A stretch of 39,484 nt of DNA, taken from the NCBI GenBank assembly GCA_018781585.1, contig JADMJT010000003.1, positions 1-39,484 on the forward strand, written 5' to 3'. Source of the stretch: Burkholderiales bacterium. Lineage in GTDB: Bacteria > Pseudomonadota > Gammaproteobacteria > Burkholderiales > Thiobacteraceae. This document shows positions 3,393 through 6,616 of the stretch, one piece after another. Within the stretch, counting starts at the first letter, position 1. Each line of letters opens with the position of its first letter. The notes below the pieces were generated by a model. The model was not told the origin of the DNA. It saw only the letters and a list, made by a program, of their open reading frames with translations, and did no database searches. The translations under genes and the position numbers were made by a program.

Positions 3393-3453
3393 GTAGCGCC
3401 GGCATCCTTGCCGGCAGTTTGGCTCCATGTTGCCGGCAAGGATGCCGGCGCTA
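3393..3453. repeat. Inverted REP pair (BIME-like), upstream of tsaB
   Basis: gTAGCGCCGGCATCCTTGCCGGCA (3393-3416) ... TGCCGGCAAGGATGCCGGCGCTA (3431-3453); the same sequence flanks the RAYT at 4703-4763 and 5318-5378. Confidence 0.92.
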
Positions 3454-3502
3454 TCCGTTCGTGGCCCCAGTATCCTTCGTGGTAAGGCTTTATAATGTCG
3501 GG

Positions 3503-4183
3503 ATGCGACTCCTCGCGCTCGACACTTCTACCGAATATCTTTCCCTCGCGCTCTATCTCGACGGCGAAATCATTTGCCGTGAGACGCACGCGGGTATTCG
3601 TCATTCCGAACTGATTCTACCGATGCTGGAGGTGTTGTTGGTTGAGGCTGGAGTGAGCTTGACGAGCCTCGACGGCATTGCCTTTGGCCAGGGGCCGGGT
3701 ACTTTTACGGGCATTCGCATCGGCTGCGGCGTGGCCCAGGGCTTGGCTTTTGGTGCGGATTTGCCGGTGGTGGGGATTGCTACTTTGCTGGCGCTGGCCG
3801 AAAGTGTGGAACAAGATTGCGTCATTGCCTGTCTCGACGCGCGTATGGGCGAGGTGTATCACGCCGCTTACCGGCGCGAGGCGCCCACTGAAGGAGGCTG
3901 GCGCGAAATTCATGCGCCCGGTTTGTATGCGCCGCAAGCGACGCCGGTCGTTGAAGGTGACGATTGGGTCGGTGTCGGTAGTGGTTTTCGAGTGGGCGAA
4001 GGCGCGTTACGCCAACACTATGCGGGACAGGTGAAGCAGGTGTTCGATGATCGTTTCCCGCATGCGCGTGAGATCGCGCGCCTAGCGAGCCGACAATTGA
4101 GCTTGGGCCGTGGCGTACCCGCGTGGGAAACGGCGCCACTGTATATTCGTGACAAAGTCGCGCTGAAAACGAGCGAACGATGA
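3503..4183 (+). CDS. tsaB: tRNA threonylcarbamoyladenosine biosynthesis protein TsaB
   Basis: MRLLALDTSTEYLSLALYLDGE...FGQGPGTFTGIRIGCGVAQGLAFG; the upstream extension in the ORF track is just the REP region read through, so the start is set to 3503. Confidence 0.93.
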   Translation: MRLLALDTSTEYLSLALYLDGEIICRETHAGIRHSELILPMLEVLLVEAGVSLTSLDGIAFGQGPGTFTGIRIGCGVAQGLAFGADLPVVGIATLLALAESVEQDCVIACLDARMGEVYHAAYRREAPTEGGWREIHAPGLYAPQATPVVEGDDWVGVGSGFRVGEGALRQHYAGQVKQVFDDRFPHAREIARLASRQLSLGRGVPAWETAPLYIRDKVALKTSER

Positions 4184-4641
4184 GCGCAGTGCCCAGCCAA
4201 GCTTTTTCTTTCCGCCCCATGAACAAAGACGATGTGGATGCGGTGATGGCGCTCGAACGCGAGTTGTATTCCTTTCCCTGGACGCCGGGCAATTTTAGCG
4301 ATTCGCTCCATGCCGGTTATAGCTGTTGGGTGTATGAATTCGGCTCGCATCTGGTGGGGTATGCAGTAATGATGCTGGCAGCGGGTGAGGCGCATGTGCT
4401 CAACATCGCCATCGGTCTTGACTGGCAGCGCCAAGGGCTAGGGCGGCGCTTGATGCAGCATCTGATCAAAGTCGCGCGCGAATACCGGGCCGAGATGATG
4501 TTTCTGGAAGTGCGGCCTTCGAATCGCGCGGCGCAACGTTTATATGACGATCTCGGTTTTAACGAAATCGCCACACGCAAACATTACTATCCAGCGCATG
4601 ACGGGCGCGAAGATGCGATTCTGATGGGGATGGCGCTATGA
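4180..4641 (+). CDS. rimI: Ribosomal protein S18-alanine N-acetyltransferase RimI (GNAT)
   Basis: RPMNKDDVDAVMALERELYSFPWTPGNFSDSL...LNIAIGLDWQRQGLGRRLM...EVRPSNRAAQRLYDDLGF; ATGA overlap with tsaB. Confidence 0.93.
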   Translation: MSAVPSQAFSFRPMNKDDVDAVMALERELYSFPWTPGNFSDSLHAGYSCWVYEFGSHLVGYAVMMLAAGEAHVLNIAIGLDWQRQGLGRRLMQHLIKVAREYRAEMMFLEVRPSNRAAQRLYDDLGFNEIATRKHYYPAHDGREDAILMGMAL

Positions 4642-5978
4642 AGCATTTGTCGCAGGAATGGCTGGCGGAGTTGAACCTGGTTCCGTTATGGCGGCAGCGT
4701 ACTGCCGGCAAGGATGCCGGCGCTACAACTGCACCTGTCGTAGCGCCGGCACCCCTGCCGGCAACTCAAAATAACCACCTGCAAGGTGTCCACAATCGCG
4801 GTTATCTCCCCCACCTGAAAGCCGAAGGCGGCATCTATTTCGTTACCTTCCGGCTGGCGGATAGTTTGCCGCAAAGCGCGCTGGATGAGCTGGAACGCAG
4901 CGCGCCGGAAACCCGCTCGAAACAAATTGAAACTTATCTCGATGCCGGGCATGGCGAGTGTTGCTTGCGCAAGCCTGAGATTGCTCAAATAGTGATCCAG
5001 GCGCTCAAGCAGTTCGAAGGCGAACGCTACGTGCTGCATGATTGGGTGGTGATGCCGAACCATGTGCACTTGGTGATTGAGCCACGCGGCGCGCATGCCT
5101 TGAGCGATATTTTGCATAGCTTGAAATCCTACACTGCGACCGAGGCGAACCGGAGCTTGAGCCGCCACGGCGCTTTCTGGCAGCACGAGAGTTACGACCG
5201 CTTGATACGCGGCCAAGCGGAGTTTGATCGCTGCGTGCAATACGTTCGAGAAAATCCCGTGCGCGCCAATCTGGCTGTGGCGCCTGATCAATATACTTAT
5301 GGTAGTGCTGGGTTTGTTGCCGGCAAGGATGCCGGCGCTACGACAGGCGAAGTTGTAGCGCCGGCATCCTTGCCGGCATTAGCCCCTGACGAGATCGCCC
5401 AACTAGACTGGCCGCAACTCAAACATGCGGCCGCGACCTGCACTGCCTGCGCGCTACACGCGCAGCGCACCCAGGCCGTGTTCGGCGTCGGCGACGAGCA
5501 AGCGGATTGGCTGTTCGTGGGCGAGGCGCCGGGCGCAGAGGAGGATCTGCAAGGTGAACCGTTCGTGGGTCAAGCCGGGAAGCTGCTCGACAATATGCTG
5601 GCCAGCATCGAACTCAAGCGCGGCGAGAAGGTGTATATCGCCAACGTGGTGAAATGTCGCCCGCCCGGCAACCGCAACCCGGAACCTGCCGAGGCGCGTG
5701 CCTGCGCGCCTTATCTCGATCGTCAAATTGAATTGATGCGCCCGAAGCTGATCGTCGCCTTGGGCAAGGTTGCGGCGGTGCGCCTGCTGGGGCGTGATGC
5801 CAGCATCGCCAGCCTGCGCGGCCAGGTCTTGGACTATCGCGGCACGCCGCTGATCATTACTTATCATCCTGCCTATTTGCTGCGCAGCCTGACGGACAAG
5901 GCCCGTGCCTGGGAGGATTTGTGTTTTGCCCGGGAGACTTTTCAGGGCTTGACGAAGCAAGCCTCCGCCACCATTTAG
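4638..5978 (+). CDS. Chimeric ORF: family-4 uracil-DNA glycosylase with an in-frame REP-RAYT-REP insertion
   Basis: N-term MKHLSQEWLAELNLVPLWRQR and C-term ATCTACALHAQRTQAVFGVG...GEAPGAEEDLQGEPFVGQAGKLLDNML...YIANVVKCRPPGNRNP...ACAPYL...ITYHPAYLLR are family-4 UDG. The middle, HNRGYLPHLKAEGGIYFVTFRLADSLP...VVMPNHVHLVIEP...CVQYVRENPVRANL, is a RAYT/Y1 transposase. No stop codon throughout; ATGA overlap with rimI. Confidence 0.93.
   Translation: MKHLSQEWLAELNLVPLWRQRTAGKDAGATTAPVVAPAPLPATQNNHLQGVHNRGYLPHLKAEGGIYFVTFRLADSLPQSALDELERSAPETRSKQIETYLDAGHGECCLRKPEIAQIVIQALKQFEGERYVLHDWVVMPNHVHLVIEPRGAHALSDILHSLKSYTATEANRSLSRHGAFWQHESYDRLIRGQAEFDRCVQYVRENPVRANLAVAPDQYTYGSAGFVAGKDAGATTGEVVAPASLPALAPDEIAQLDWPQLKHAAATCTACALHAQRTQAVFGVGDEQADWLFVGEAPGAEEDLQGEPFVGQAGKLLDNMLASIELKRGEKVYIANVVKCRPPGNRNPEPAEARACAPYLDRQIELMRPKLIVALGKVAAVRLLGRDASIASLRGQVLDYRGTPLIITYHPAYLLRSLTDKARAWEDLCFARETFQGLTKQASATI
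4703..4763. repeat. Left REP pair flanking the RAYT
   Basis: TGCCGGCAAGGATGCCGGCGCTAC ... GTAGCGCCGGCACCCCTGCCGGCA; hairpin GCCGGCA-(TCCT/CCCC)-TGCCGGC with GTAG head. Confidence 0.93.
5318..5378. repeat. Right REP pair flanking the RAYT
   Basis: TGCCGGCAAGGATGCCGGCGCTAC ... GTAGCGCCGGCATCCTTGCCGGCA. Confidence 0.93.
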
Positions 5979-5998: not shown

Positions 5999-6616
5999 AT
6001 GGAGAAACCGATCATGCGCCAGCTTGCTATCATCGCTACCTTGCTGCTTACCACACTCTTGGGTGGCTGCGGCTACAACACCTTGCAGCAGAACGACGAA
6101 TCCATCAAAGCCGCTTGGGCCGAGGTGCTGAATCAGTATCAGCGCCGCGCCGACTTGGTGCCGAATCTGGTCAAAGTGGTAGAAGGCTACGCCGCGCATG
6201 AACGGAGCATTTTGGTGCAAGTCACCGAAGCGCGCGCGAAAGTGGGCACCATTCAAGCCACACCCGAACTCATTAACGATGAACAGGCGTTTGCTAAATT
6301 CCAGCAGGCCCAAGGCCAACTCACCAGCGCCTTATCGCGCTTGATCGCGGTGGTGGAGAATTATCCGCAACTCAAGGCGGATACCCAGTTTCTGGCTTTG
6401 CAGACGCAACTGGAAGGCACCGAGAACCGCATCACGGTCGCACGCAACCGCTACATCAAGTCGGTGGAAGGATACAACGTGACGGTGCGTTCGTTCCCGA
6501 GCAATCTCACGGCCATGCTGTTCGGCTTCAAGGTCAAACCCACTTTCGCGCCGGAAAATGAAAAGGAAATTTCTAAAGCGCCTAAGGTGGAATTTGGTAC
6601 CGCACCTGCGCGCTAA
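5999..6616 (+). CDS. LemA family lipoprotein
   Basis: Lipobox LLGGC; YNTLQQNDESIKAAWAEVLNQYQRRADLVPNLVKVVEGYAAHE typical of LemA. Start may be the Met at 6014. Confidence 0.92.
   Translation: MEKPIMRQLAIIATLLLTTLLGGCGYNTLQQNDESIKAAWAEVLNQYQRRADLVPNLVKVVEGYAAHERSILVQVTEARAKVGTIQATPELINDEQAFAKFQQAQGQLTSALSRLIAVVENYPQLKADTQFLALQTQLEGTENRITVARNRYIKSVEGYNVTVRSFPSNLTAMLFGFKVKPTFAPENEKEISKAPKVEFGTAPAR

Follow-up and report, generated by a model that had tools for sequence, protein, structure and literature searches.

A REP-flanked RAYT transposase lies in frame within a family-4 uracil-DNA glycosylase gene in three betaproteobacterial families

The stretch of 39,484 nucleotides analysed here (the window) contains a single open reading frame of 446 amino acids (4638..5978, + strand) in which a REP-associated Y1 transposase (RAYT, or TnpA-REP) lies within a family-4 uracil-DNA glycosylase (UDG4), in the order UDG4 N-terminal motif, REPs, RAYT, REPs, UDG4 core. 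The same architecture occurs at the same site in 17 genomes in three betaproteobacterial families. We consider it likely that the cassette is a full REPtron residing in frame within the disordered linker of udg, translated as part of its host gene and still feeding the REPs of the genome. REPtrons and in-frame REPs are both known; what appears to be new is a whole REPtron lying in frame within a host gene. In agreement with an earlier interpretation of the window made from its letters (the sequence-only reading), which knew of no described RAYT-UDG fusion, we found no report of one in the open-access literature.

The chimeric ORF is part of the gene order tsaB-rimI-udg-lemA. Its ATG overlaps the stop codon of rimI by 4 nt (ATGA); rimI lies directly 5' (4180..4641, +; TIGR01575, 138.6 bits) and tsaB precedes it (3503..4183, +; TIGR03725, 185.8 bits), with a LemA-family gene following on the 3' side (5999..6616, +; PF04011, 193.5 bits) that is syntenic in the relatives examined. 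Translation of 4638-5978 runs through 0 stop codons and returns exactly the single UDG/RAYT frame that the sequence-only reading had claimed. The protein matches both PF03167 and PF01797 above their cutoffs, and the four Fe-S cysteines, the UDG4 motifs, the RAYT HVH and the candidate tyrosine picked out in that reading are all present. The REP junctions, which the same reading had singled out for an assembly check, recur in independent assemblies, whose contigs measure 60-293 kb and include the RefSeq record of a named strain. An assembly artefact is very unlikely because the junctions repeat in this way.

At its N-terminus the chimera carries a motif (MKHLSQEWLAELNLVPLWRQR; 4638..4700, +) that is conserved across the UDG4 proteins of the order, whether or not they carry the insert. 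These proteins share a layout of conserved N-terminal motif (L.EL.L.P.WR.R), highly variable Ala/Pro-rich linker and core CxxC, and in all carriers the cassette occupies the linker between motif and core. The proposed in-frame insertion of REP-RAYT-REP into a low-complexity UDG linker is supported, and sister species show the empty site. The motif stays conserved despite the variable linker separating it from the core, and it looks like an interaction peptide.

The glycosylase core (residues 268-429; 5439..5924, +) comprises CxxC, GEAPG..ED, KCRPP, C356 and HPAYLLR, and matches TIGR00758 UDG_fam4 with 204.6 bits (cutoff 125.3). An AlphaFold model based on a 26-sequence alignment shows the UDG core as well folded and the linkers, residues 21-61 and 225-243, at pLDDT below 50. 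By Foldseek, the UDG part matches family-4 UDGs, including 1ui1 and 1l9g. Among the aligned UDG4s of g64, a second genus that includes carriers (g64/f44), nearly all, insert-bearing or not, have serine at the third Fe-S cysteine (KSRPP; for example in L047, L080 and L084), the remaining three cysteines being invariant. The possibility that the chimera is a dispensable copy, backed by a second family-4 UDG, was rejected: the two further proteins with PF03167 reach 25 and 51 bits, where the family-4 cutoff lies at 125, and no second intact UDG4, a possibility raised in the sequence-only reading, was found elsewhere in the window's genome.

The RAYT (TnpA-REP) domain (residues 52-226; 4791..5315, +) matches NF047646 REP_Tyr_transpos over residues 111-221 with 84.7 bits, and the fusions of Methylobacillus sp. 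MM3 and L047 match with 82.4 and 90.6 bits, respectively (cutoff 80). The only solved structure that matches this part by sequence is that of E. coli TnpArep, 4er8. The HUH motif H142-V-H144 (5061..5069, +) aligns with its HMH, and Y202 (5241..5243, +) aligns with the tyrosine of its YIYINP, Y115, the catalytic tyrosine of the E. coli enzyme (PMC8266576). Both the HVH and the tyrosine are invariant in all fused RAYTs aligned, though overall identity drops to 46-60%. The AlphaFold model of the domain is of medium confidence (pLDDT 62-87) and the Foldseek list for the chimera, with UDG-like matches only, bears on the UDG half. Like other RAYTs, this one has a REP-associated Y1 transposase domain, an HUH motif with a tyrosine, and GTAG-REP flanks related to REPs dispersed in the genome; it is not a free-standing gene, lying in frame within udg. 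The window's genome encodes two further RAYT-like proteins of 287 and 291 aa (L001 and L002, on contigs C37 and C116 of G000), which have a C-terminal extension, with an HTH recognised in L002, and about 30% identity to the fused RAYT. Plasmid carriage of the cassette was considered and set aside, the plasmid matches being distant transposases only, at less than 60% identity.

The sequence-only reading had placed a REP at each junction. REPs are indeed present there, not as single copies but as an inverted pair at each junction. On the 5' side, an outer GTAG-REP (4704..4726, -; read in frame as AGKDAGAT) precedes the one at the 5' end of the RAYT cassette (4740..4762, +; VAPAPLPA), which has 2 mismatches to the 23-nt consensus. 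On the 3' side, the GTAG-REP at the cassette end (5319..5341, -; AGKDAGAT) is followed by the outer copy of the pair (5355..5377, +; VAPASLPA). The chimeric ORF therefore holds four GTAG-REPs, two per junction, and shuffled sequence gives 0 (100 shuffles). An intergenic REP pair of the same family lies 5' of tsaB (3393..3454), arranged + then - with GTAG outward, opposite to the pairs in the ORF.

Across the carriers, the junction REP stems are lineage-specific and differ in their paired bases (GTAGCGCCGGC...GCCGGC or GTAGCGCAGGC...GCCTGC, the CCGGC and CAGGC types). Most fusions show the order +REP, RAYT, -REP, usually with a further +REP, and all REPs are in frame; the 3' linker contains three REPs in G411 and four in G136, again all in frame. 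In every complete case the frame is kept across both junctions despite the changing REP number, without stops. We rejected the idea that the REPs of the window's genome often lie in frame in its other genes, since 17 of the 21 REP sites read fall outside any ORF of at least 150 aa; the sole REP tested in a recognised gene sits before the matched domain, near the gene start. The long ORFs over the REPs tested in G321 had no Pfam match, in a high-GC genome where such a count is uninformative.

The 17 carriers comprise 12 with one complete ORF, four cut by contig ends and one whose frame shifts at the 3' junction. Within the window's genus, g1, the ORF is complete in the window's genome (G000) and in two congeners of the window's species, G004 (91% identity) and G006 (77%); the contigs of G001 and G002 end inside the RAYT, and G005 has the shifted junction. 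The g64/f44 carriers include eight complete cases and two (G410 and G413) broken at contig ends, and the case in Methylobacillus sp. MM3 (G465) is complete at 489 aa. The search of GTDB genomes that found the MM3 case also returned a chimera of 426 aa in a groundwater betaproteobacterium. The sequence-only reading had taken the insertion for an isolated event, a view that does not survive the recurrence of site and architecture in other genomes; a recent one-off insertion is ruled out by this recurrence and by a dS near 1 between carriers. G007 is probably a carrier too, since its contig ends in a REP directly after the UDG N-terminal motif (L034 5616-5695).

In an even sample of the order (399 genomes), a profile built for the fused RAYT found matches in 12 at E 1e-22 or better, ten of them fused to UDG (six from the window's genus and four from g64), one in an HsdR-like gene and one a distant RAYT. 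The fused RAYT is carried by 10 of 23 g64 genomes, and the fusion by 1 of 187 genomes in the family of G034, which was taken as Methylophilaceae from the MM3 match. The other matches in a class-wide sample of 369 were open frames of 187-321 aa, with no UDG fusion among them. One cassette copy was seen per genome. Most of the genomes are MAGs, their genes being named from profiles and synteny, and several break at the cassette. Assemblies repeatedly end in or beside it (L034 in G007, L095/L079 in G410, L094 in G413, L009 in G002, L007 in G001), so that carriers are undercounted in MAG collections.

The presence of the fused RAYT is matched by that of its REP family. The ten g64 carriers have 66, 33, 135, 92, 59, 98, 171, 16, 59 and 10 REP copies, counts that include stem types beyond the junction type, and all 13 g64 genomes without the fused RAYT have 0 (Fisher p about 9e-7, for carriers that share ancestry, with G321 apart in the UDG tree). 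In g1, the carriers have 31, 7, 7, 22, 30 and 7 copies, the window's genome holding at least 31, and the probable carrier G007 has 30; the empty sister species G003 has 4, and the sister genus 0 and 0. The simplest reading of this correlation, which comes from few independent origins (G321, the main g64 clade and g1), would be that the fused RAYT drives the matching REP family.

Initiation sites bear on how the RAYT is made. In 6 of 14 fusions, the window's included, the stretch that joins the UDG N-terminal motif to the RAYT core contains no ATG, GTG or TTG; with the usual start codons, the RAYT of these fusions can therefore be translated only from the udg start codon. Between the RAYT and the UDG core, the weak starts GTG and TTG are found in most fusions, and ATG in five. 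We infer that a single chimera of about 50 kDa is made. Judged by substitution rates, the RAYT and UDG halves are both under purifying selection: in g1, dN/dS is 0.045-0.15 for the RAYT (dS up to about 1.2) and 0.05-0.13 for the UDG core, and in g64 the medians are 0.156 for the RAYT and 0.082 for the UDG. The cell's need for UDG can account for the missing stops and frameshifts, and does not account for the purging of missense changes in the RAYT.

In the window's genus, the RAYT tree agrees with the flanking-gene tree, and vertical descent of the cassette is most likely in the window's lineage, with a single clean loss, that of G003. This empty species nests among carriers in the flanking-gene tree with support of 96/96, making cassette loss the most likely course. 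In its udg (L010 1480-2184) the linker forms a long and almost perfect palindrome (VALAPSPASEGASAT; -55 kcal/mol over 90 nt), which may be the scar of that loss. G005 shows a natural split (L008 1273-2175 and 921-1541), with the 3' REP pair deleted and the frame shifted: the RAYT remains in frame with the UDG N-terminus, and the UDG core ORF starts at its own ATG within the end of the RAYT. If the MAG is correct, the fusion is dispensable in G005, because the 3' junction is frameshifted and the UDG has an ATG of its own.

The g64 genomes record a different history. G407 and G411 are 92-93% identical throughout; between G407 and G410, identity is 92-93% in rimI and in the core of the UDG and 74% in the RAYT, and the RAYT data reject their grouping (AU p 4.7e-6). 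This mismatch despite matching flanks means that the cassette was replaced at its site. On these comparisons, g64 cassettes were exchanged between species, the UDG and rimI flanks having stayed put; homing by the cassette itself or ordinary recombination in its flanks may account for the move. In the UDG tree the carriers are scattered over at least four clades, and G321 shares 46-49% identity with the main g64 clade in the RAYT and 77-80% in the UDG. One ancient fusion inherited vertically everywhere is disfavoured by the scattered clades and by the RAYT divergence of G321, though the RAYT tree alone does not reject a single g64 RAYT clade (AU p 0.12).

In two families, the gene for an HsdR-like type I restriction subunit holds a related RAYT in frame, in open frames of 1159 aa in G629 (L103 1-2829, contig C11) and 1173 aa in G288 (L060 1-2661, contig C14). 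These RAYTs keep the HVH and the tyrosine, and are flanked by different REP-like hairpins that likewise encode linker peptides. UDG is therefore not the sole possible host, which fits a housed element better than a fusion dedicated to repair.

The preferred reading, a REPtron housed in the udg linker, has to be weighed against a fusion selected for two functions, in which coupling uracil excision to the processing of single-stranded REPs would be useful, for example where uracil occurs near REP hairpins on the lagging strand. The use of one gene and one site in three families despite divergent RAYTs speaks for such an enzyme, as do the conservation of both halves and the report that REPs lie preferentially inside repair genes (PMC3733652). 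We nevertheless regard it as improbable: a related RAYT sits in frame in a restriction gene, cassettes are exchanged independently of the UDG core, one species has lost the RAYT and kept the UDG, another has split the two, and UDG stands alone in many sister species. The HsdR-like residence and the UDG-independent exchange point to a housed element rather than to an enzyme built for two functions.

The remaining alternatives concern whether the RAYT is active and whether it is truly joined to the UDG. Two separate proteins could arise by internal initiation or by proteolysis at the REP-encoded linkers, leaving a fusion at the level of the ORF only; the start codons available before the UDG core (GTG or TTG in most fusions, ATG in five), the ATG overlapping the RAYT end in the split G005 and the predicted disorder of the linkers would all permit this. 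The six fusions lacking a start before the RAYT core count against it, since there the RAYT carries at least the UDG N-terminus, as does the preservation of frame at both junctions in every complete case, whatever the REP number, and we give this version little chance. Less credible still is a decaying or chance insertion, with the RAYT a dead passenger whose frame is open only for the sake of the downstream UDG. Selection acting only on the UDG would suffice to remove stops and frameshifts, and the linker tolerates length variation, but the selection test already refutes this version in part: RAYT missense changes are purged as well (dN/dS 0.05-0.15 in g1, median 0.156 in g64), the HUH and tyrosine are invariant at 46-60% overall identity, and REP populations track the presence of the RAYT. 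The suggestion in the sequence-only reading of a silent passenger carried at no cost fails on the same grounds, selection conserving the RAYT domain and its presence coinciding exactly with the REP family in g64.

Under the housed-REPtron reading, the chimera of about 50 kDa would fold as two independent domains joined by flexible linkers. The RAYT half would nick and join single-stranded REPs through Y202 and the HUH motif, spreading or maintaining them, and the UDG half would still excise uracil. In-frame residence would give the RAYT constant host expression and protection against loss, because nonsense and frameshift mutations in it would also hit the UDG. We further speculate, as a tentative extension that we hold to be possible rather than probable, that the cassette behaves as an unspliced, intein-like homing passenger, its single-strand HUH nuclease re-invading or converting the same linker of udg, and linkers of other genes such as hsdR, and that the enzyme, carried in a repair protein, builds and maintains the REPs.

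These observations bear on the host role and long persistence of RAYTs, for which carriers and non-carriers within one genus offer a natural test. A RAYT that persists by residing within a gene the cell keeps would be a transposase protected from loss without being free-standing, and the fused RAYT could be assayed through a known partner. In 2018, a survey of TnpA-Y1 proteins set aside those longer than expected as gene fusions or annotation errors (PMC6006769); surveys that drop over-long TnpA proteins in this manner miss a class of elements.

Compared with known family-4 UDGs (TTUDGA, 1ui0/1ui1; TM0511, 1vk2/1l9g), the window's protein has the core, Fe-S cysteines and motifs intact, and differs by about 220 aa inserted between N-terminal motif and core. 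Inteins with homing endonucleases are likewise nuclease passengers that occupy one site in orthologues patchily, are lost, and are exchanged independently of the host gene. The RAYT cassette resembles them in its patchy one-site occupancy, its losses and its exchange independent of udg. Unlike inteins, whose site is the conserved active site, it sits in a variable linker, and no intein splicing domain is among the Pfam/NCBIfam matches of the window protein and the MM3 and L047 fusions.

The closest known system is the REPtron, a RAYT/TnpA-REP flanked by GTAG-REPs, as exemplified by E. coli TnpA-REP (PMC8266576, PMC3116915). The cassette shares with it the HUH/Y1 domain, the HVH and tyrosine aligned with 4er8, the inverted GTAG hairpin flanks, and the pattern of a single cassette seen in each genome, alongside REPs that number from tens to hundreds at other places; it differs in that the housed RAYT has no gene of its own and, in several genomes, no start of its own, and in that its REPs serve as linker peptides. 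A 2013 paper listed REPs in genes of replication and repair (uvrA, recB, polA, dnaE2, ligase); the in-frame REPs and Rickettsia palindromic elements of that work are non-autonomous hairpins coding for 20-80 aa, many of them in DNA-repair genes (PMC3733652). As with those palindromes, the REPs here are read through in frame as flexible linkers in a repair gene; in contrast to them, a transposase accompanies the hairpins, and the whole REPtron lies within the ORF.
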